Source: Deltaproteobacteria bacterium
GTDB taxonomy: Bacteria > Bdellovibrionota_C > UBA2361 > SZUA-149 > JAITKM01
Length of the DNA stretch: 64,000 nt
Assembly (NCBI GenBank): GCA_031278395.1
Contig: JAITKM010000007.1
Location: forward strand, 1 to 64,000
Reading direction: 5' to 3'
Below are positions 1 through 24,607 of this stretch, one piece after another. Each line of letters begins with the position of its first letter. Positions within the stretch are counted from its first letter, which is position 1. The position numbers and the translations under genes are program-made. Under the pieces are notes generated by a model that was given only the letters and a program-made list of their open reading frames with translations, did not search any database and had not been told where the DNA came from.

Positions 1-1655
1 TCAGAGAGCATTTTTAAAAACTTTTCTTCAAAGTTCGGCACAGTTTTATCTTGATAAGCCTTATAAAGAGCATTAGCAATACAGTTTGCAAAAGAATACT
101 GATAGCAGTAAAACGGATAGCAAAATATTTGCATTATCGAAAACCAATCGTGAGTCTGTTCTGCCCTGAATTTAACTACCTTCCCCATATATTTCTGCGC
201 CTCTTCTCTGTAAATCTGCGCTATTCTTTCTCCAGAAAGCTCGCTTTTTTTTCGCTCAATATGGACACGTGACTCAAAAATATGAACTACTATACTCCAC
301 ATAATATGTCGTATTGCCATCTCAATATTATTCATCAATAAAACTAATTTTTCCCTGCCATTGTCGGAATTTTTCAGCAATTCATTAAAAACAAGCATTT
401 CACAAAAAATAGATGCAATCTCCTTTAAGACGTCCGGCGTATTTTCATTAAGATATGATTGATTCTTAAATAAATCATAATGGCAAGAATGACCTAATTC
501 ATGCGCTAAAGTAAAAACGTCCGACATTTTACCGCAAAAACTAAGCATAATATAGGAATGAAGCCTGTTATTTATATATGCCGAGAATGCTCCGCTACAT
601 TTATTGTCTCGCACCGAAGCATCAATCCAGCTCTCTTTAAATGCTCTTTCTGCGATTTTTGACAACTTCGGCGAAAAATTCTCAAACGCTGTTAAAATAA
701 TTTCCTTGGCTTCTTTCCACGCATAGCATCGGTCTTTTTCAAAAGGAAATGGCAAAGACAATTCCCAAGTCGGTATCTGTTTTTTGCCTTGCAGTTTGGC
801 TTTTAATTTAAAAAATCTGTGCGATATTGTTTTATAGTTGGCAACGACTGTCTGACTTAATAAATTAACAACCTTGTCATCTATTTCATTAATCAAATTT
901 CTCTTAGACACCGGAGAAGCATAACGTTCAAACTTATCGGCAATCGCTTTATCTTTAACGAGCATATTATAGATAAAAGCAAAAAGCGCGCTGTTCTCAG
1001 CGTCAACCCGAACAAACTCATCGCTAATCTTTTTCCTTTTAGCGCCTCTTGATTTAAAAAAAAGATTTCCTATTTCGCTATTACCGTATATTTTACCATC
1101 TATTTTATATTTTAGTTTAGAATACGACTCTTGATACAAGCGTGCCCAAGCATCGCCGGACGTTGCAGCTTTAGATATAAAAACTGCGTTTTGCTCTTCA
1201 CTGATACTATGTCCGCTAAATCTTCGGATATGCTTTATCGCAGACACGTAAAATTTCAATTTTGAATTTTTAAGCCACTTATTAATTTTTGCATTAGGCA
1301 AGGAATTAATCTCAAAATTAATAAAAGCGATTTCTTTTTTTAAAACACTTACACATTCCTCTATTTTCTGGCATAAAGAACCGGCGTAACCGTCATTTAA
1401 TTTGGCAGAATAATTTAACTGAACAGCCATGCTTAATTTTGCAAATGTTTCTTCCACCTCTTCAAGCTGTTGAAACATTTTAAAAATCTCACTTACACTA
1501 AGCGATGAGATTTTCCCTTTACATCTTCCAACAAGCTCGGAGCAAATCTTTTTGCAACGCTTTAAATCTCTCTGTAACAGAGGTTCAGAACAAGAATTAT
1601 ACAATTCGGATAAATCCCATTCGGGAATATTTTTATCTTTTGCAGATCGCTTCAT
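1..1655 (-). CDS. M3-family oligoendopeptidase F-like peptidase (C-terminus cut by window edge)
   Basis: The minus strand reads without a stop from an ATG at 1655 to the window edge, giving 551 residues of a zinc oligopeptidase of the M3/PepF type. The HELGH zinc motif lies near residues 385-389 (TLAHELGHSCH). The start MKRSAKDKNIPEWDLSELY matches in style the start of the paralogue at 4942-6729 (KLPRWDLSRLYKS). M3 peptidases cut short peptides in the cytoplasm. Here the gene follows a radical SAM enzyme and a Cys-rich small peptide gene on the same strand, so removal of a leader peptide is a plausible but inferred role. An attenuator-like hairpin separates it from the peptide gene. An in-frame TAG at 1683-1685 (complement) limits upstream extension. 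The paralogue has the same position relative to a decayed radical SAM gene, which supports a functional link. Confidence 0.85.
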   Translation of the reverse strand, partial: MKRSAKDKNIPEWDLSELYNSCSEPLLQRDLKRCKKICSELVGRCKGKISSLSVSEIFKMFQQLEEVEETFAKLSMAVQLNYSAKLNDGYAGSLCQKIEECVSVLKKEIAFINFEINSLPNAKINKWLKNSKLKFYVSAIKHIRRFSGHSISEEQNAVFISKAATSGDAWARLYQESYSKLKYKIDGKIYGNSEIGNLFFKSRGAKRKKISDEFVRVDAENSALFAFIYNMLVKDKAIADKFERYASPVSKRNLINEIDDKVVNLLSQTVVANYKTISHRFFKLKAKLQGKKQIPTWELSLPFPFEKDRCYAWKEAKEIILTAFENFSPKLSKIAERAFKESWIDASVRDNKCSGAFSAYINNRLHSYIMLSFCGKMSDVFTLAHELGHSCHYDLFKNQSYLNENTPDVLKEIASIFCEMLVFNELLKNSDNGREKLVLLMNNIEMAIRHIMWSIVVHIFESRVHIERKKSELSGERIAQIYREEAQKYMGKVVKFRAEQTHDWFSIMQIFCYPFYCYQYSFANCIANALYKAYQDKTVPNFEEKFLKMLS

Positions 1656-1684
1656 TAGAATTACGGATATTGTTAAACAACGCT

Positions 1685-1720
1685 AAAAATAAAAAGTAGG
1701 TTGAGCTTAACTCAACCTAC
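1685..1720 (-). terminator. Hairpin with U-tract between peptide gene and peptidase gene
   Basis: On the minus strand a 10-bp stem (GTAGGTTGAG paired with CTCAACCTAC, loop of 5) is followed directly by TTTTTATTTTTA. This is the form of a factor-independent terminator or attenuator. Placed after the peptide gene and before the peptidase gene, it would give more peptide than peptidase transcript, as is common in RiPP operons (inference). Confidence 0.7.
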
Positions 1721-1774
1721 CTGCAAAACTTAAAAACCTTTGCGAAAAATTTTTGACTACACACTAACTACACA

Positions 1775-1939
1775 CTACTTGCCACATGTGCTACATGAGC
1801 AAGTGTCAGAAACTGAACATAAGCAAAGAGAAGCATCTCTTTGAAGGTCTGTCTCTGGCAGCGCCTTTCCGTCACAAATAGACAAAAATTGCGGCTCAGA
1901 ATCGACTTCGTGAGGAAGATTAATTTCTTTTTCACTCAT
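1775..1939 (-). CDS. 54-residue Cys-rich peptide, candidate radical SAM-modified RiPP precursor
   Basis: A short gene missed by length cut-offs. It has a near-perfect ribosome binding site (AAAGGAGGTGATAAAC just before the ATG) and encodes 54 residues. The first 37 or so are acidic and leader-like (MSEKEINLPHEVDSEPQF...). The C-terminus packs five of the six cysteines into 14 residues, with spacing C39-x-C41, C47-x-C49-xx-C52, and ends in Gly-Lys. C22 is the sixth. It lies 33 bp downstream of the radical SAM/SPASM/RRE gene on the same strand and upstream of an M3 peptidase gene. This is the architecture of sactipeptide/ranthipeptide-type precursors, where Cys thiols are linked to carbon atoms. 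A small metal-binding peptide is the main alternative. No homologue could be searched. Confidence 0.72.
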   Translation of the reverse strand: MSEKEINLPHEVDSEPQFLSICDGKALPETDLQRDASLCLCSVSDTCSCSTCGK

Positions 1940-1972
1940 GTTTATCACCTCCTTTCGGGCTTTAAAAGCCGG

Positions 1973-3289
1973 TTAAGGGTTAAGGATCGACACAAAACCA
2001 GTCATAATCAGTTCGCTAAAGAACTTTTCATAACCAGGCTCAACGATTTCAGCTACGCTGCAAATCATGTTAGGCTGTAAATTGCCTAACATATCTGCGC
2101 CTAGCTTGTTTATCAGATATGCACGATAACCGTTCCAAGCTATAGCGCCAAACTCCTCAGACCTGATAGCAAAGTCATTAATTATAATCCGCTGTCCTTC
2201 TGTCTTCAACTGCGCCATAGTTTCTTCCTGAAGCTGCTGCATCATCTTGCCGGCTCTGGAGGCATTGGGTGGATTAATTAACAATTTAGTCGCAGATTTT
2301 TTATTACAGCAGCCAAGTTTGCAACTTCCGCCACAACGCTCTAGCAGCCAACACTCATGGCATTCATCTAAAATAAATTCATCTGTCTGCCAAGCTGAAA
2401 ATTCTTGCCAAATATCCGCTAGCTTTAAGCTTTGAATTGAGCCAACACTGTCCGTCACAAACGGACATGCCCTAACTTCGCCATCACTAGCAATCGTGCA
2501 TCCCAGTATCCCGGCTGAACAACTGGTGGATAAACAAAATTTAAAGCTATCCAGCTCAGGAAAAATGCAGTACGGGACAGGCGTAGCCTTAATCACATTA
2601 ATTCCCAGTTCGTTGTTGATATAAGACATCTGGTTTAAGACATCTATATATTCTTTACGAGTCAAGGAATACGCAGAAAAATCTGCACAATTAACAGGAC
2701 ATTCAGCTACATCCATATTGATAAAGGTGCAACCCATATCTCGCAGCATTTTAGCTGTTTTCAGAAGCTCATTCTTGTTAAGCTTACTGACAACAGTGTT
2801 CGTGCTGAAAGATACACCATTCTGCAAGCATAGCTCAATGCCTGCGACAGTTTTATCAAACGAACCCGTAACTCCCGTAACAGAATCATGGACATCAGAT
2901 GATGCACCATGTATTGAAAAATACATAGATGCCAACCCAAGCCCTGTCAATTCATCTAAGACGCTGCGTGTCAATAACGTAGCATTAGAGTTCATAGAAA
3001 CCCTAATGCTTGTTCCGTGCCAACGCTGAAGCAGGAGTTTTATAACTCCGTAGTTCAGTAAAGGTTCGCCGCCGGTTAAGCACACGCTAAACACTTTTGC
3101 GTCAATCAACTCTTGAGCTACTTTTTCTGCTAGTTGTTCAGTCATCTGATTAGATGCTGAACAATACTGTTGAACTCCAAAATCGCGCCAGTAGTTGTAA
3201 CAATGCATGCAACCAAGATTACAATTGCCTGTTACTTCTACAAAAACACGAATCGGAGATTTCAACCTCCGAAACAATCTTCTACTCAT
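1973..3289 (-). CDS. Radical SAM/SPASM peptide maturase with C-terminal RRE-like domain
   Basis: The 438-residue protein has a radical SAM core with the cluster-binding CNLGCMHC motif at residues 23-30 and a CLTGGEP motif near residue 90. A SPASM-type auxiliary cluster domain follows in the C-terminal half (CSTSC, CHECWLLERCGGSC and later cysteines). The last 85 or so residues (from IIINDFAIRSEEFG) look like a PqqD-type RiPP recognition element, with the usual LINKLGADML and EIVEPGYEKFFSEL elements. Such enzymes install carbon-centred crosslinks in ribosomal peptides. The Cys-rich peptide gene follows after 33 bp. The start is supported by an AAAGGA site about 8 bp before the ATG. A truncated paralogue sits at 7497-7913. 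Product chemistry cannot be read from sequence. Confidence 0.88.
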   Translation of the reverse strand: MSRRLFRRLKSPIRVFVEVTGNCNLGCMHCYNYWRDFGVQQYCSASNQMTEQLAEKVAQELIDAKVFSVCLTGGEPLLNYGVIKLLLQRWHGTSIRVSMNSNATLLTRSVLDELTGLGLASMYFSIHGASSDVHDSVTGVTGSFDKTVAGIELCLQNGVSFSTNTVVSKLNKNELLKTAKMLRDMGCTFINMDVAECPVNCADFSAYSLTRKEYIDVLNQMSYINNELGINVIKATPVPYCIFPELDSFKFCLSTSCSAGILGCTIASDGEVRACPFVTDSVGSIQSLKLADIWQEFSAWQTDEFILDECHECWLLERCGGSCKLGCCNKKSATKLLINPPNASRAGKMMQQLQEETMAQLKTEGQRIIINDFAIRSEEFGAIAWNGYRAYLINKLGADMLGNLQPNMICSVAEIVEPGYEKFFSELIMTGFVSILNP

Positions 3290-3515
3290 ATTTAGTTTTT
3301 CCTTTCTGGTTAGAGAAATGAAAGTGTTTATGTAAAAACCTTAAGAAAAACATTTTCTACGATAAATACAAACGTTATGTTTCTGCCGCAGGATGTTTTT
3401 CTTGAAAACATTTCCGACCGCCAGTATCAAAAAAAAAAAATAAGCAAGTGGTTAAAAAAATTTTTAAAATCTATAAAAATTAACAAGTTATATAAAGCGA
3501 AAGTAACCCGCACCA
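3290..3515 (-). repeat. Leader region duplicated at 7914-8140
   Basis: About 200 bp upstream of the radical SAM gene is almost identical to the region upstream of the truncated copy (7914-8140), with only scattered substitutions and small indels. The similarity ends at the dispersed repeat (here GAAAGTAACCCGCACCA). It contains a small inverted repeat (ATGTTTT with AAAACAT). It probably holds the promoter of both radical SAM genes. The strong conservation compared with the diverged coding regions suggests either a recent duplication or selection on the leader. Confidence 0.8.
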
Positions 3516-3567: not shown

Positions 3568-4332
3568 TTATACAACCCTATAACGTTTTTCTTCCGGAAA
3601 TTTTCGTAAAAACTCATCAATCGACTGAACAAGATTTGTTTCAGGCTGTTTTCCAATACATTCATCCATATACGAACAAACTTTTGCAATTTCCTGATAT
3701 TGTGAAATGGTGCCATCCGACCATTTATAAAAATTGTCTATCTCATTAATCTCGTTAAAAGCATAAATGCATAAATTATCTACAATCCGCTCTTTCTCTT
3801 CTTGCTGTAATTTAAATCGCTGAACTATTATTTCTTCGATTCCTAAATGCAACATTTCGTGCACGAGAGTAACAGAGACTTTCCAAAAATTATCCCCACA
3901 ATAACCAAAGTCCACAACTCCAAATTTAGCATGATAGCCCGCCCCTGCTCTATAGCAATTTATATCGATTCTATATTCACGCCAAATCTTAAAATCCCAA
4001 CTTTTATTTAACGCTTCAAAGCGTAAATAACACTTTTGAACAATTGGAATTGCTGATTCGATTACCTCAACCATTTTTTTGTGTTCACCAATGTCAAATA
4101 ATTCTATCTTAAATCGTTCAAAATATTTATCACAAAACTGCTTATCATTATCAATTTTTGCCAAACATATATCGTCAATCATTTCATTAATTAATAGGTT
4201 ATTTTTGCTTCGCAGAAATCTTTCCATATAAAGACGATTATTTTTCTTAAACCATTCTAATCGACAAATATTAGAACATAAATTGTTCCACGCTTGATTG
4301 ACATCAGGGATTACAATTTGGAAATTAAACAT
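3568..4332 (-). CDS. HExxH metallopeptidase-like protein, unknown family
   Basis: A 254-residue protein with a clear zinc-peptidase signature HEMLH at residues 158-162 (VTLVHEMLHLGIEE) in the middle and further acidic residues after it. No signal peptide or membrane segment is visible, so it is probably cytoplasmic. I do not recognise the family. It lies on the same strand as, and upstream of, the radical SAM/peptide/M3 peptidase set, separated by the 200-bp leader. It sits between the intact and the decayed copies of that locus. Involvement in peptide processing or immunity is possible but unsupported beyond position. Confidence 0.7.
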   Translation of the reverse strand: MFNFQIVIPDVNQAWNNLCSNICRLEWFKKNNRLYMERFLRSKNNLLINEMIDDICLAKIDNDKQFCDKYFERFKIELFDIGEHKKMVEVIESAIPIVQKCYLRFEALNKSWDFKIWREYRIDINCYRAGAGYHAKFGVVDFGYCGDNFWKVSVTLVHEMLHLGIEEIIVQRFKLQQEEKERIVDNLCIYAFNEINEIDNFYKWSDGTISQYQEIAKVCSYMDECIGKQPETNLVQSIDEFLRKFPEEKRYRVV

Positions 4333-4577: not shown

Positions 4578-4795
4578 TTATCTTATCTTTATTATCTTTC
4601 TACGATTACTCTTATATAAAATCAACTGATAAACTGGACGATATATTCTTTTATCATTAAATTTCTTTAGACTGATTTTAAAAGAATCGCAAAAAAAACC
4701 TGCACCAAAATTTTTTCCAATTTTTTTTTTAAATTATACTGGCGGAACCTCAACAGCTTTAAAGTATCCGGGAATTTTTAGAAGTTTCCTAAAAT

Positions 4796-4854
4796 GCCTA
4801 GGGAGAGACTCGAACTCTTACAGGGTTACCTTTAATTAAAGGACTCTCGCTTGC
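4796..4854 (-). pseudogene. tRNA-like 3' half remnant
   Basis: On the minus strand, AAGAG-TTCGAGT-CTCTC has the form of a T-arm (four pairs plus one mismatch, TTCRANY loop) and is followed by CCTAGGC and an A, like an acceptor 3' strand with its discriminator. No matching GCCTAGG 5' half or clean anticodon arm is found upstream, so this can only be a remnant or a chance likeness. Such remnants are often left by element integration. Confidence 0.3.
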
Positions 4855-4941
4855 AAAAACCAATAATTGATCACAAACCAAAGAATATCACAAAATGTCG
4901 CAAGCATAATATATTTACAAAATAATCAACACTGAAATCTA

Positions 4942-6729
4942 TTACGATAACACTACAACTTGAGATAATTCCTCAGCTTCGTCAAGATAATCAGAAATTA
5001 AATTTAGCCCTTTTTGCCAGAAGTCTTTTTGATTAACATCCAATCCAAAGGGTTTTAGCAATTCTTGATAGTCTTTTACTCCTGATTCAGAAAGCAGCTT
5101 TAAATATTTTTCTTCAAAATCTGGAACTAATTTTTCTTGATAAACTTTATATAGCGACTGAACAATACCACTCGCAAAAGAATACGAATAACAATAACAC
5201 GGATGAAAAAAGCAAGTCGGAAAAGAAAGCCATTCATGATTTGGCTTATCCATTAGATTCACCGTCGAGCCAAAATATTTACTTCTTTCTTCCTGAAAAA
5301 TTTGCGCCAAGTGTTCTGCAGAAATCATTCCTTTATTGATTTCTTGATGCGCACGAATTTCAAAATTATGAAATAACGCTGTGTATAAACTATCATTTAT
5401 CATCTGTTGAATTTGGCTCATCAATATTTCTAGTTTTTCTAAATCAGATTTTACAAAGTCTAGTAACTTTCTTAAGGTCAAAAAAGCTCCAAAGGTAGAA
5501 GGAACTTCGCACAAAAATATCGACGAATTATTGTTTAAAATCTTTTGTTGCTTCAAAAAAGTAAAATGACTTGCATGTCCAAGCTCGTGCGCAAGAACTG
5601 CCACATTGCTCCGGGTTCCGGTAAACTGAAGCGAAAGATACGCGCCCCATATGGTCGGTACAGGACAAGCAAAGGCAGTATCTCTTTTACCAGCCCGCAC
5701 CTCTGCGTCTATTACGCGGTTATCAAAAAAATTCTTTACGATTTTATATAGCTCAGGAGAAAACTCTTTATAGGCGCTTAAAATGATAACTTTTGCTTCG
5801 TTCCAGTTGTAACGTTTAGGCTGGATCAAATCTAGTTGCAAATGCGCATCCCAATATGGAATTTTGGATACTCCAAGCAGTCGCGCTTTTAGCTTAAAAA
5901 AACGTTGTGAAATATTTTTATAACTATCATTAACCGTTTGCAACAATAGTTCAACAGTTTTATCATCAACTTGATTATCAAAATTAACCTTAGCCAGAAT
6001 GGAATCAAATTTATAAATATTCGCTTCAATCTTTTGATCCCGTATAATCATGTTATAAAGATACGCAAAAAAATCAGCATTATCAGCATAAACTCTTTGC
6101 CGCTCGTTGTTAATTTCCTTGCGTTTTTTTCCGTTCACCTTATTAAACAATGCCCACAATTCTGGGTTGCTATATTCTTTGTTACCAATTCTAAATCTTA
6201 GCTTAGCAAAAGATTGATTGTAAAGCCTCAGCCAACCAGTAAATGATGTCTCGTCTTTTTTAGACAAAATATTTTTTATAACATCAGACACCTTGTGTGC
6301 ACGATGTCTTCGCAAGTATTTTAGAGCAGGCAAATACTCTCTTAATTTTTTATTTTTCAATAAGCTGCAAAGTTTATTCTCAGGAATAGCAACAATTTCA
6401 TTCTTATAAAACAAAATATTGCTTTCAATATTCTGCAACTGCGCGTGTATCTTGGCACTACCAACTTTAATATTTTTGTAATTCTCCGTTTCTTTTAAAT
6501 AAAAAAATCTCCATAATTTAATGCAAATCTTTTCCAACCTCTCCAGCAACTCAAACATCTCAAACATTTCTTTGGCGTTTAGCTTTGCAATTTTGCCCTT
6601 ATATTTTGCAGCAAAATTAGTTGTTAGCTTCTTATATGTCGCTAAATCTTCTTTTATCTTCGGATCAGAAACCGACTTATACAATCTTGACAAATCCCAA
6701 CGCGGTAACTTTTGATTATTTTCCTTCAT
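4942..6729 (-). CDS. pepF: M3-family oligoendopeptidase F-like peptidase (second copy)
   Basis: A full-length 595-residue M3/PepF-type zinc peptidase with the HELGH motif at 381-385 (VLAHELGHASHF) and a downstream acidic segment (CEVPSTFG) expected to supply the third ligand. No signal peptide is visible, so it is cytoplasmic. It is a paralogue of the peptidase at 1-1655. It lies 48 bp after the decayed maturase (6777-7467) on the same strand, mirroring the order radical SAM then peptidase of the intact locus. No small peptide gene remains in the gap. It may still act as a housekeeping oligopeptidase or as a leader peptidase in trans (inference). Confidence 0.88.
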   Translation of the reverse strand: MKENNQKLPRWDLSRLYKSVSDPKIKEDLATYKKLTTNFAAKYKGKIAKLNAKEMFEMFELLERLEKICIKLWRFFYLKETENYKNIKVGSAKIHAQLQNIESNILFYKNEIVAIPENKLCSLLKNKKLREYLPALKYLRRHRAHKVSDVIKNILSKKDETSFTGWLRLYNQSFAKLRFRIGNKEYSNPELWALFNKVNGKKRKEINNERQRVYADNADFFAYLYNMIIRDQKIEANIYKFDSILAKVNFDNQVDDKTVELLLQTVNDSYKNISQRFFKLKARLLGVSKIPYWDAHLQLDLIQPKRYNWNEAKVIILSAYKEFSPELYKIVKNFFDNRVIDAEVRAGKRDTAFACPVPTIWGAYLSLQFTGTRSNVAVLAHELGHASHFTFLKQQKILNNNSSIFLCEVPSTFGAFLTLRKLLDFVKSDLEKLEILMSQIQQMINDSLYTALFHNFEIRAHQEINKGMISAEHLAQIFQEERSKYFGSTVNLMDKPNHEWLSFPTCFFHPCYCYSYSFASGIVQSLYKVYQEKLVPDFEEKYLKLLSESGVKDYQELLKPFGLDVNQKDFWQKGLNLISDYLDEAEELSQVVVLS

Positions 6730-6776
6730 ATAATTTTCCTAAAAACAGACTTTATTTATTGATAACATAAAGGTAA

Positions 6777-7467
6777 TTACACATAATTTCCCGGCGAGAA
6801 ATATTTATCAAAGATATATTTCATCCAAATACAAAAATTATAATCTATTCCATTTATTGATTTTGTTCTGTTATACGCGCTGACTTTACATCCTGCTCCG
6901 CAAAAACTAATAGCCGGGCATTTTTTGCAGATAGGATTATTGAATCTTGAAATATAGCTCTGAATATGTGTAGAAATTTTTACATTGTCGTCTATATGCC
7001 CTAATTTTATTTCAGTTAGATTCTCTAATGCTTGACAAGCGTGTATGTTGCCTTCAGGAAACACAACCATTTTTCTGCCAATACCACAACTTTGCTTTTT
7101 AAGCTTTCCAGTTTTGACAGCCTCCACTACATCCAAAAACAGATAATCGTAAATATTATATTTTATGCTTTTATTATGTGTAGCAATCATACTCTCCGCA
7201 ATTACTACTGGCAGTTTGTCATCAAATTCCTCAATACCCAAATCAATTAACAAATTCATGCCATATTTCGTTACATAAAAATTTGTGTAATAGCAATTGA
7301 TTGACACTTTCGTTATCAACGTAATTTACAAACCAATTGGGTTCATCTTTTATTAAGGCATTCTTGATGTCATCAGATAAATAAATACTTTTACATATAA
7401 GTGAATGCCAGACATATCGCGTTTTAGTTACACCATGAACAAACTTTGATTTTCTTATTTCAGACAT
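6777..7467 (-). pseudogene. Degraded radical SAM/SPASM maturase lacking its radical SAM core
   Basis: Two overlapping reading frames carry the two ends of one gene. Residues from 7467 (MSEIRKSKFVHGVTKTRYVW...) resemble the N-terminal recognition region of peptide maturases. From 7319 a second frame gives a SPASM-type C-terminus, with CGIGRK, ACQAL, CKKCPAISFCGAGC and a last Cys. The central CxxxCxxC core is absent, and the frames overlap around 7243-7319. The simplest reading is an internal deletion of the catalytic domain that also shifted the frame. It lies between a truncated radical SAM gene and an M3 peptidase. A pair of short expressed proteins is possible but unlikely. Confidence 0.65.
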
Positions 7468-7496
7468 AAAGCAAAATAATGGAGCAATAAAAATAA

Positions 7497-7913
7497 CTAT
7501 GTAATTAGATCGTGAATTTCAGAACACGAACCAAGCACTGAAACCAATACGCTATGAAGCACTAATTCCTTTAACTCTAGCAAGCGTTCTTGCGTAAGCA
7601 GTGTAAGATTAGAATTCATTGTAACCACAATGCCTGCATCTTTACACCTGCGAAGAACTAATTTCACTATATTGTAATTCGTAAGTGGCTCTCCTCCGGT
7701 GAGACAGACACTAAGCACTTCAGACTTAATAAGCTCATCTATAACACGATTTGCAAGTGCTTCTGATAAATGCTCTGCTGAAGCGCAATTAAGCTGTTTG
7801 CCCAAATCACGCCACGAATTGTAGCAATGCTTACAACTCAAGTTGCAATTTCCCGTTACATCGATAAACACGAGAAGCGGTGCCTTCAGCTTCCGAAACA
7901 ATCTTCTACTCAT
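7497..7913 (-). pseudogene. Truncated radical SAM gene (N-terminal third of the 1973-3289 paralogue)
   Basis: It encodes 138 residues homologous to the first third of the intact enzyme at 1973-3289. Both start MSRRLFR, with CNLSCKHC as the cluster motif and CLTGGEP retained. The product stops where the paralogue reads HDSVTGV (here HDLIT then stop). The rest of the barrel, the SPASM domain and the RRE are missing, and unrelated decayed maturase sequence follows. It cannot be an active enzyme on its own. The upstream leader is nearly identical to that of the intact gene. Confidence 0.8.
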
Positions 7914-8140
7914 ATTTAGTTTTTCCTTTCTTGGTTAGAGAAATGAAAGTGTTTATGTAAAAACCTTTAAGAAAAACACTTTCTACGATAAATACAAACG
8001 TTATGTTTCTGCCGCAGGATGTTTTTCTTGAAAACATTTCCGACCGCCAATATCAAAAAAAAATAAGCAAGCAGTTAAAAAATATTTTAAAATCTATAAA
8101 AATCGGCATGTTATATTAAAGACAAAGTAACCCTGTACCA
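7914..8140 (-). repeat. Second copy of the radical SAM leader region
   Basis: Nearly identical to 3290-3515 over about 200 bp, running from the start codon of the truncated radical SAM gene to the dispersed repeat AAAGTAACCCTGTACCA at 8124-8140. Together with the homologous genes on its left it defines a duplication of the RiPP-like locus. Confidence 0.8.
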
Positions 8141-8161
8141 AGAAGAAGTAACCCTGTACCA
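8124..8161 (+). repeat. Two tandem copies of the dispersed repeat
   Basis: AAGTAACCCTGTACCAAGAAG occurs twice with a 21-bp period (8124-8140 and 8145-8161), the consensus family word with CTGTACC in place of CCATACC. Confidence 0.7.
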
Positions 8162-8167
8162 AGAAGA

Positions 8168-8288
8168 AGAACAGAACGGCGAAGATAAAGACGTGATTAA
8201 AACGGGAGAAAACAATGTTGTTCGGGTTGCCAGTAATTTACCGATGACAGAACCGCTGGCTTATTATGGGCAGATCATAAAAATATAA
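8168..8288 (+). pseudogene. Possible fragment of a substrate-binding protein gene
   Basis: One plus-strand frame reads VVRVASNLPMTEPLAYYGQ before a stop at 8286-8288. This resembles the first strand and PLTGPLAAYGQ element of branched-chain amino acid (LivK-type) ABC transporter binding proteins. Upstream the frame runs into the dispersed repeats, and nothing after the stop continues the family. If real, it is a short relic of the N-terminus. Confidence 0.3.
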
Positions 8289-8344
8289 TCAGCCAGACAT
8301 TATTTTCATTTTTTAGTAGCGACTATTTAAATCTATTGATTTTA

Positions 8345-9349
8345 TCATTTTTTCCTACAACATCTACCATGGCAAATACGTCTGTTTGAGCTGGAGGAAT
8401 TACTCGACAATAAAATTGCCGGGCAGTTATTCTCACAAGAAACAAAAACACCGTCTGGGCATTGTCTAACACAACTTGGACATTCATCATCACAAGCGAC
8501 TGTTATGGTGTTGTTGAGGCACGATTTAAGCGAACAAATAGACGAATTACTTTCGCTATTACTACTAGAACTTAGCGTAGAAAAAATACTACTAGTTAAT
8601 GTACTAGATTCAGAATTACTACTAGCCTCAGAACTTTCCAAACTTGATGATTCAAAAGAAGATTCTAAGCTTAAACTGCTTGAAAGACTTTGACTTAAAT
8701 TATTCGAGCTAGAATTACTAGAGGAGCTATTTATTAAAGAACTTGAATTTGATAATTCACTAGAGATACTAATACTAAGCGAATTTAAAGCGCTGGAACT
8801 AGACGAACTTGAAAAACTTGTGGGGATCGTTGAATCATATGAAAATTTATAATCATAACAACCTATATAAATATCGGCATATGGTTTATCAGGATGGCCG
8901 CAATAATAGTCATCAAATTCAGAAAATAATTCTAAAGTAATGGTAAAATAAACATCTGAACTATTCCCAAGAATATCGTTTGGTGAAATTTGGTAAGTAA
9001 TATCTACTGATTGTGGTATTGTTGCTAGCTCTGCATCATCCTTGGGTAATGGAGGAATAGCAGAAGTTAATTTTATACTATTTCTGTCCAAAGATATACC
9101 ATTAATAATCACAATAAGCTCACAACCACCATAACAATCAATCCAGACTACGTCTTTATTAGAGTAGTTTACTGCATTATAATAATCATTATCAGTAATC
9201 TTAAGCGACCTTTCGCCAACAGCATTAAGTAAATCAGTAAGGTCGGTTGCAAAACTTTGAGTGTTATAAAAAAAGAAAACTAATAGGAAAATAAATATAT
9301 TAAAAAACGTTTTGAAAATATTAAAGCATCGGATTTGATTTTGATACAT
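8345..9349 (-). CDS. Exported Ser-rich, Cys-tailed protein of unknown function
   Basis: 334 residues. The N-terminus has a strong hydrophobic segment (about residues 13-28, IFLLVFFFYNTQSFA) ending in a signal peptidase-like site. A roughly 140-residue domain follows, then a low-complexity serine linker (about 180-260) made of SSS, SNSS and LSSS units. The C-terminal 65 residues are rich in cysteine (CSLKSC, CDDECPSCVRQC, CENNC, CHGRCC). This suggests a secreted or surface-tethered protein with a disulfide-bonded tail. I do not recognise the family. It lies alone, downstream of the hairpin-rich element at 9359-9495. Confidence 0.75.
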   Translation of the reverse strand: MYQNQIRCFNIFKTFFNIFIFLLVFFFYNTQSFATDLTDLLNAVGERSLKITDNDYYNAVNYSNKDVVWIDCYGGCELIVIINGISLDRNSIKLTSAIPPLPKDDAELATIPQSVDITYQISPNDILGNSSDVYFTITLELFSEFDDYYCGHPDKPYADIYIGCYDYKFSYDSTIPTSFSSSSSSSALNSLSISISSELSNSSSLINSSSSNSSSNNLSQSLSSSLSLESSFESSSLESSEASSNSESSTLTSSIFSTLSSSSNSESNSSICSLKSCLNNTITVACDDECPSCVRQCPDGVFVSCENNCPAILLSSNSSSSNRRICHGRCCRKK

Positions 9350-22840: not shown

Positions 22841-24607
22841 ATGAAGAAAGAATTAAATAAAATTTTATTACTAACTATATTTTTAAGTATTCCGGCATTA
22901 AGTCTATCTGCAAATACCTCTAGTATTCCAACAGTTTTTCTTTCTGAAAATCAAAATCAACAAACTACTTCTTCTAGTCAATCCTCTTTCCAAGTCGCTT
23001 GTTATTATAAAACCTCTGGAGCACAAAAAGGTTATGGAAGTTTCTTTTACGACAATAAGACAGTAGAGATCACAGGTAATATTCCTCAGTGTTTGGCTGA
23101 TGCTGTCGTGAAAGCCTACCACTACTGTTACAATGATAAAAATATTACCCTAGCTCAAGGCATTAAAGATGTTGCTAAAATCACCGACGATCCAAGTCTA
23201 GCTAATATTCTTTCTCAAATGAATGCTAAACTAGAAAATTTAAATAATGAGTCTATTCCACCCTACTACTTAAATGGATTATCCTTCAGCCAAAACATTT
23301 CTGAAAAAAATAACCAAAACGCAACTTGTGGCAATACGCCCAATCACTTTTACTGTCAAAATCTAAAAAATACAATTACCCAATCCGCTTGCAACGAAAT
23401 GGCAAACCTAAAAGGCTTATTGTGCGATAAGATAGAAGGCGATCAAGTCTATATGCATCAACATGGAGTTACTGACGTTGCATTTACCTACCATGGTAGC
23501 GGTGATGAATGTATTAACAATGCATTTGAACACTACGCTTTTGGAGAAATCAAAGGCTGGACTTGGACTAGAAATGTTGATGCTAATTGTAAGGTCATCA
23601 CCGATCTAACTGGCTTAAAACAATGCGGTAACGTCAGCACTTATTGGGCTATCACTCCAATTAGTTTAATTTGGAACGACAAAATTCCAATCCAGCCTGC
23701 AGTTACTCAATTCCCATTAGATTCAAAGAAACCCGGTCAGTGGTATATCTGGAAAGCCAGCGAAAATACACCTCTCATAGTTTGGGATAAGAAATACAAA
23801 AAAGAAATTATTTCTGTTGAACAATTGTTTGGACAAAAAACATTTGGCAAAACTTGGAAAGATGGTTTTGAGGCCTTAGCTAGTTTAGATAAAAATCAAG
23901 ATCGCATTGTTAATGGCAATGAATTAAATGAACTTGCGCTCTGGTTTGATAAAAACCAAAACGGTATTTCTGAAAAAGGAGAAATAAAAACTTTAAAAGA
24001 AGCTGGTGTTACTGCACTATATTATACTAAGGACGGGGATGATCCTCAGACTGGCGATATTATCGTTAGTAAAGGTTATACAAAAACCGACGGAACAACT
24101 GGAGCTGCAATCGATTGGATGGCTAAAACTGGCTATGTAACTAAAGAAGAAGCCATTAAAGCCGCAAACCAAGAAATTGAAAAAGCTGGACAAGCTGCTT
24201 TAAAATCTAGCTTTGGTGGAGTTTGGGTTTGGTCAGTTGACAAAGAGTTTATTACTAGTGAATTGACTATGCCTATTGGAACAATGACTTTGGCGGAAAA
24301 AGATGGCAAAGTCAAAGGCGTCTTAGCTAGCGAAGTCCCAATTGAACACCCTAGTAATGTTACTAGCATACAGTTTTTTGCTCGACTTGAAGGTGAAAAA
24401 ACTGTTTCAAATGGAATTAATAGAGTTAAATTTATAGTTATGAACGAAGAGGATTTAACTACTGAAATGACAGCTGAACTATCTGCCGATGGTGATTTGA
24501 TGTTTGGCGTTAGTCGAACAGAGCTTTATTTGGATAGCAACAAAAAAACAGACAAGCAAACTGCTCACTATACCTGGAAAGCTAAAAGAGCTAAGCTCCC
24601 AATATAA
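22841..24607 (+). CDS. Secreted Cys-rich protein with an EF-hand pair
   Basis: 588 residues with a clear signal peptide (MKKELNKILLLTIFLSIPALSLSANT). The first half has many cysteines (e.g. CGNTPNHFYC, CNEMANLKGLLC), which suggests disulfides. Two calcium-loop-like segments follow at about 350-375 (DKNQDRIVNGNELNEL and DKNQNGISEKGEI), the EF-hand/dockerin style found in secreted bacterial proteins. The C-terminal third is beta-rich. I recognise no enzymatic motif. It stands alone on the plus strand after a 480-bp spacer; nnr follows 22 bp after its stop. Confidence 0.8.
   Translation: MKKELNKILLLTIFLSIPALSLSANTSSIPTVFLSENQNQQTTSSSQSSFQVACYYKTSGAQKGYGSFFYDNKTVEITGNIPQCLADAVVKAYHYCYNDKNITLAQGIKDVAKITDDPSLANILSQMNAKLENLNNESIPPYYLNGLSFSQNISEKNNQNATCGNTPNHFYCQNLKNTITQSACNEMANLKGLLCDKIEGDQVYMHQHGVTDVAFTYHGSGDECINNAFEHYAFGEIKGWTWTRNVDANCKVITDLTGLKQCGNVSTYWAITPISLIWNDKIPIQPAVTQFPLDSKKPGQWYIWKASENTPLIVWDKKYKKEIISVEQLFGQKTFGKTWKDGFEALASLDKNQDRIVNGNELNELALWFDKNQNGISEKGEIKTLKEAGVTALYYTKDGDDPQTGDIIVSKGYTKTDGTTGAAIDWMAKTGYVTKEEAIKAANQEIEKAGQAALKSSFGGVWVWSVDKEFITSELTMPIGTMTLAEKDGKVKGVLASEVPIEHPSNVTSIQFFARLEGEKTVSNGINRVKFIVMNEEDLTTEMTAELSADGDLMFGVSRTELYLDSNKKTDKQTAHYTWKAKRAKLPI

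Follow-up and report, generated by a model that had tools for sequence, protein, structure and literature searches.

The described systems closest to the locus reported here are all concerned with making or cutting peptides. In ranthipeptides (SCIFF/ScfB, TIGR03974, and PapB, NF047865), a radical SAM/SPASM maturase acts on a Cys-rich precursor; sactipeptides (SkfB, AlbA, ThnB type) come from clusters that often carry a protease (PMC8172795). Further points of comparison are mycofactocin (MftC, TIGR03962, and MftB, TIGR03967) and, for the peptidase, oligoendopeptidase F of the M3B family (TIGR02290). Surveys have reported, in general terms, radical SAM clusters for ribosomally synthesized and post-translationally modified peptides (RiPPs) in archaea including DPANN (PMC12144867), as well as RiPP clusters in the candidate phyla radiation (PMC12153355). 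Here we describe a three-gene cassette consisting of a radical SAM/SPASM maturase, a Cys-rich peptide and a zinc peptidase, located at 1-3289 (-) of a 64-kb window (C25:1-64000, the first 64 kb of contig C25) from a 1.7-Mb draft genome in 63 contigs (92% complete, 4% contamination). From its sequence, this is likely a RiPP cassette in which the maturase modifies a Cys-dense core and the downstream zinc peptidase acts on the leader or the product. A literature search with subscription papers and preprints outside its scope returned no description of the trio, or of an M3 peptidase in a radical SAM RiPP locus, and the family of ribosomally made, enzyme-modified peptides is apparently undescribed.

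The three genes named in the initial annotation were recovered at the positions it gave (Table 1). Window base 1 is the end of contig C25, and the M3 peptidase gene therefore loses its C-terminus. The 438-aa maturase matches the Pfam models Radical_SAM (3e-22) and SPASM (1.3e-4), both above cut-off, and its cysteine motifs, CxxxCxxC at C23/C27/C30 and CxxCx5CxxxC at C310-C323, are invariant in the aligned full-length relatives, in agreement with what had been annotated. Its nearest solved structures and sequence neighbours include the peptide maturases SkfB, SuiB, anSME and PqqE, with SkfB as the top fold match (overall TM-score about 0.52-0.58, 22% identity). The annotated PqqD-like C-terminus held only in part: four predicted strands followed by helices are compatible with a PqqD/RRE fold, but Pfam PqqD was not matched and the MftB model stayed under its cut-off. 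An RRE identity for this domain is thus plausible, if weak at the sequence level.

Table 1 Features of the cassette, its decayed neighbour and the sequence around them, in window coordinates.
Feature	Position	Strand	Evidence or remark
M3B (PepF-like) zinc peptidase, C-terminus cut by contig end	3..1655	-	PF01432 2.8e-26, PF08439 9.5e-12
Terminator-like hairpin between precursor and peptidase genes	1694..1722	-	13 pairs, T-rich tail
Cys-rich precursor peptide, 54 aa, MSEKEIN...CLCSVSDTCSCSTCGK	1775..1939	-	Extended Shine-Dalgarno at 1944-1953
Radical SAM/SPASM maturase with C-terminal RRE-like domain (about residues 365-438)	1973..3289	-	Pfam domains, Cys motifs, fold neighbours
Conserved 5' block, -190 to +20 of maturase ATG	3270..3479	-	Common to six cassettes
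H1-type HExxH putative metallopeptidase (HEMLH)	3568..4332	-	Homologous to C9 and C45 cassette peptidases
Second, full-length M3B peptidase, 595 aa	4942..6729	-	HELGH...E
Two-frame remnant of a different radical SAM/SPASM protein	6777..7467	-	Radical SAM core missing
First 138 codons of a maturase paralogue, then stop (decayed second cassette)	7497..7913	-	55% identical to window maturase
Second copy of 5' block	7894..8102	-	95% identical

The 54-residue peptide likewise stood as annotated; its last 16 residues hold five of its six Cys. Its extended Shine-Dalgarno, AGGAGGTGAT, complements the 3' end of the 16S rRNA of the same genome. The pattern RGGRGGTGAKNNNNATG occurs six times genome-wide, each time at a cassette precursor; the reversed control pattern never does. 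Judged by sequence, the locus has what is asked of a RiPP in general, a small gene-encoded precursor with a leader and a variable core, beside a modifying enzyme.

The idea of a radical SAM RiPP locus is strongly supported by the recurrence of the trio. The genome contains at least eight paralogous cassettes, each in the order maturase, Cys-rich peptide, zinc peptidase. The maturase homologues are 51% (C35), 43% (C9), 42% (C21), 37% (C45), 33% (C13) and 31% (C22) identical to the window copy, with the C45 copy lacking its N-terminus, and a search of the same genome also turned up maturase fragments on C25 and C13. Each maturase that was read is followed by a small Cys-containing open reading frame (ORF) with a strong Shine-Dalgarno and then by a zinc-peptidase gene. 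A genome of the same class, G034 (L062), has an intact trio of maturase, 48-aa peptide and H2-like peptidase (H2 is defined below), plus one decayed trio and a further fragment. Decay is also seen in the window, where a second cassette (6777-7913, -) has lost its precursor and the M3 gene behind it is intact. At L143:7476-7700 (+) of G034, a 74-aa peptide with 10 Cys survives, flanked by a decayed maturase and by an HExxH peptidase gene with a frameshift.

The trio can also be found well outside this class. In a collection scan with the maturase profile, the four best contigs (L062 of G034, a Paceibacterota, a Pacearchaeota and a Patescibacteria contig) each carried an HExxH gene and a small Cys-containing ORF, and lower matches did not. 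Even draws of genomes from the phylum to which the Paceibacterota genome belongs and from the class that includes the Pacearchaeota one, seed genomes included, gave a maturase at E <= 1e-50 in 13/380 and 18/378, respectively. Neighbourhoods were scored by a mechanical rule: an HExxH ORF had to lie no more than 2 kb away, and a small ORF that had a Shine-Dalgarno and 4 or more Cys no more than 1 kb away, all on the same strand. By this rule an HExxH gene (M3 counted) accompanies 30 of the 41 family loci, a peptide 25 and both 22, where the search profile included seed loci already known to have the trio; all three counts are 0/76 for control radical SAM loci. Among the 30 newly fetched loci from Patescibacteria and Pacearchaeota-type archaea (29 from the draws and L194, the second maturase of a seed genome), several of which are probably other radical SAM enzymes, the counts are 19, 16 and 13. 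The genome-neighbourhood comparison proposed in the initial annotation thus finds the trio in the same genome, in G034, in Patescibacteria and in Pacearchaeota-type archaea. The annotation had also reasoned that homologues never found near a Cys-rich peptide would speak against it, and the 25 of 41 loci with such a peptide show the opposite. Patescibacterial locus L190 (G137; reverse-strand coordinates 4764-8697) lines up a single maturase with three Cys-rich precursors and as many HExxH proteins.

Compared with the known classes, the cassette shares individual traits and departs from each as a whole. Patescibacterial cores have the Cys-Asp pairs of ranthipeptides, but the window maturase reaches only 69.4 bits against the PapB cut-off of 340, the RRE-like domain is C-terminal, Asp is rare in the cores of this genome and the peptidase partner is a different one; the 25 best models listed for the window maturase do not include the SCIFF maturase model. 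SkfB, a sactipeptide enzyme, is the best fold match and also a strong sequence match, whereas precursor, gene order and peptidase differ and no transporter set was seen next to the window cassette. The C-terminal domain weakly shares the RxExFG motif region of MftB, but the maturase scores 74.1 bits against the MftC cut-off of 265, carries its RRE-like domain as a fusion and is paired with a Cys-rich precursor; none of the mycofactocin gene set was seen. As the maturase falls far under the functional NCBIfam cut-offs listed, it should not be assigned to the enzymes of ranthipeptides, sactipeptides or mycofactocin. The trio could nonetheless be a distant member of one of these classes, such as the ranthipeptides or sactipeptides, with nothing new in its chemistry. 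The SPASM maturase, RRE-like domain, Cys-rich precursor, CD/DC-rich Patescibacterial cores and SkfB-like fold all fit such a membership, and the distance from the functional cut-offs and the lack of a SCIFF-like precursor argue against it, leaving it a real possibility that falls short of an even chance.

The peptidase slot is filled in more than one way. The window M3 protein has HELGH at residue 385 plus a downstream Glu and matches Pfam Peptidase_M3, which bears out its annotation as a zinc oligopeptidase. The two window M3 copies score 93.3 and 98.5 bits against PF01432 (cut-off 27). Both have the full M3 domain and HELGH...E of oligoendopeptidase F, but neither reaches the TIGR02290 cut-off of 561.7 bits (413.7 for the truncated copy, 407.5 for the full-length copy), and here they occur only beside RiPP maturases or their remnants. 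The best PDB match of the second copy is 2qr4. The notion of M3 as the defining partner had to be given up, since the slot holds three peptidase types or more, M3 among them. M3 is found in the window, C35 and C21 cassettes; H1, an HExxH protein of 254-256 aa unrelated to M3, in the C9 and C45 cassettes and in the window at the position given in Table 1; and H2, an HExxH...EGxA protein of 243-246 aa, in the C22 and C13 cassettes. Every M3 (4/4), H1 (3/3) and H2 gene that was found in the genome belongs to a cassette or a decayed cassette, and a separate housekeeping PepF was not found in this 92%-complete genome. H2 is a single homologous family across this genome, G034, Patescibacteria and archaea. 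For H1, the structure model has a pLDDT of 69 and a PDB search gave no match below E 0.001, and a comparison with the peptidases in L183 and L192 (hhalign probability 58%) is suggestive of a link. M3 was considered as a universal partner and rejected, as the partner seen outside this genome is a small HExxH protein. Since M3 was seen in this genome only, it looks like a local substitute for that usual partner, a local replacement being the simplest account.

Taken together, a working scheme can be outlined. The precursor would be overproduced from its very strong Shine-Dalgarno, and its leader would dock on the C-terminal RRE-like domain of the maturase. The radical SAM/SPASM enzyme would then modify the short Cys-dense core, most likely through Cys-centred thioether links, and the cytosolic zinc peptidase encoded downstream would remove the leader or trim the product. 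In this genome, M3 would have been recruited to stand in for the small HExxH peptidase of other genomes, and the cassette repertoire expands, decays and probably recombines at a shared 5' block. Gene order, intact catalytic motifs, leader similarity inside maturase clades and the change of peptidase type inside one such clade are observed; docking, chemistry and cleavage are inferred by analogy with known families, and the role of the product is likewise inferred.

Several points count against this scheme. PepF-type M3B enzymes usually take short peptides, not 54-mers, which makes leader cleavage by M3 its weakest step. No dedicated exporter or transporter set was seen next to the window cassette, and Asp, the usual ranthipeptide acceptor, is scarce in the cores of this genome. 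The MftB model TIGR03967 gives E 0.15 for the window maturase and 5.7e-4 for its relative L186, both under cut-off. Applied to the far loci that were sampled, the mechanical rule finds one partner missing in about half. Finally, several cassettes sit on short draft contigs broken in the repeats; the window cassette (302 kb) and the C35 cassette (78 kb) are on large contigs.

The first of these points leads to another explanation, in which the product of the trio is a RiPP, the peptidase serves to break down leader fragments or product that has not been exported, for recycling or self-protection, and the leader is removed elsewhere. The preference of M3B oligopeptidases for short peptides would fit, as would the terminator-like hairpin that parts the peptidase gene from the strongly translated precursor (other cassettes also hold hairpins in this gap) and the fact that unrelated peptidase folds can occupy one slot. 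On the other hand, nearly all cassettes, across phyla, retain a dedicated zinc peptidase, which exceeds a general need for turnover. We consider such a disposal role less likely than not and favour the scheme in which the peptidase acts on the leader or the product.

Leaders resemble one another within maturase clades: none of 1000 shuffles was as alike as the pairs C9/C21, C9/C45, C21/C45, C22/C13a and C13a/C13b, the pair C25/C35 was equalled by 6/1000, and C22/C13b was weaker (25/1000). A leader motif common across phyla was rejected, with most cross-group pairs tested no better than shuffles and the pair L184/L190 as the exception. Cores are short, with Cys mostly 1-3 residues apart, and differ strongly among paralogues. 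Asp stands beside many Cys in Patescibacterial cores and beside few in those of this genome. The C45 core, from the clade that groups with G034, most resembles the C22 core of the C22/C13 clade; these sequences are short, and the likeness is a hint of core exchange between the two clades. The close Cys spacing and the lack of a conserved acceptor residue in the cores of this genome would also suit a metal-binding peptide, metallophore- or metallothionein-like, whose thiols are tuned by the radical enzyme, as opposed to a cross-linked antimicrobial or signal. Such strong core variation among paralogues is unexpected for one metal site, however, and none of the genes seen beside the window cassette is for metal transport, making this explanation improbable. 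A chance juxtaposition, in which the radical SAM enzyme is an orphan, the small ORF spurious and the PepF a housekeeping enzyme, would draw on how common M3 peptidases and radical SAM enzymes are and on the random origin of some small Cys-rich ORFs, but its probability is practically nil given the recurrence of both partners (22/41 loci against 0/76 controls), the confinement of M3, H1 and H2 to cassettes and the extended Shine-Dalgarno at 6/6 precursors.

A shared element also lies at the 5' end of the maturase gene. The conserved 5' block, about 210 bp long and ending at maturase codon 7, is carried by the window cassette (C25a), its decayed neighbour (C25b), C35, C22, C13a and C13b. Copies are 91-96% identical to that of the window, and the maturases behind them fall as low as 29-33%. 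In 30-column windows, identity averages 89-98% from -157 to +22 and about 61% thereafter, with 43-63% between clades. A search of 485 kb of this genome placed all full or near-full copies at cassettes or at the ends of cassette-bearing contigs. The near-identity of the block in front of diverged maturases is most simply explained by recombination or gene conversion at a common 5' element; alternatively, the block may be a promoter or regulatory RNA under strong selection. The block has a fold z of -2.7 and no Rfam match. Contig C14 holds a 62-bp partial match (81%) at L147:2347-2406, with another radical SAM gene about 2 kb downstream. The C9 cassette has no 5' block; upstream of its maturase, L015 about 3119-3420 (-) resembles the 3' end of a tRNA gene, where ARAGORN calls no tRNA, and this stretch is possibly an integration scar.

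In a maximum-likelihood tree, the cassettes of this genome form two clades within the mainly Patescibacterial part of the family: C22 and C13 join the Patescibacterial sequence L189 (99/98), and the remaining cassettes join G034 (99/97). The peptidase type changes inside the latter clade (M3 in C21, H1 in C9 and C45). We tentatively propose, at a little less than even confidence, a cross-domain RiPP class spanning ultra-small bacteria, Pacearchaeota-type archaea and this lineage, with an RRE-fused maturase, a Cys-dense precursor and a dedicated metallopeptidase. In this lineage it would form a recombining repertoire, in which the near-identical 5' promoter/leader block is joined to diverged maturases, leaders track clades and peptidases, perhaps also cores, are exchanged, so that one cell may make many different modified peptides. 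The means by which Patescibacteria and DPANN archaea interact with host cells are poorly known, and the cassette offers a concrete, expressible candidate RiPP family in both. Unrelated zinc peptidases that seem to carry out one and the same step make it a natural experiment as well, and the origin of RiPP diversity can be studied in a single genome whose cassettes, at least eight in number, are diverging.

Among the minor observations, the viral contigs searched held no relative, so viral carriage is unsupported. A 588-aa ORF at window 22841-24607 (+) has no Pfam match at E 0.001. Predicted secreted Cys-containing proteins adjoin two cassettes: a Ser-rich one of 334 aa at window 8345-9349 (-), without a Pfam match, and one of 454 aa at L014:11298-12662 (+). 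Downstream of the C13 and C45 cassette peptidases are GNAT acetyltransferases (L019:1412-2050(-) and L018:7755-8366(-)) that share 56% identity and have a possible part in tailoring or self-protection.

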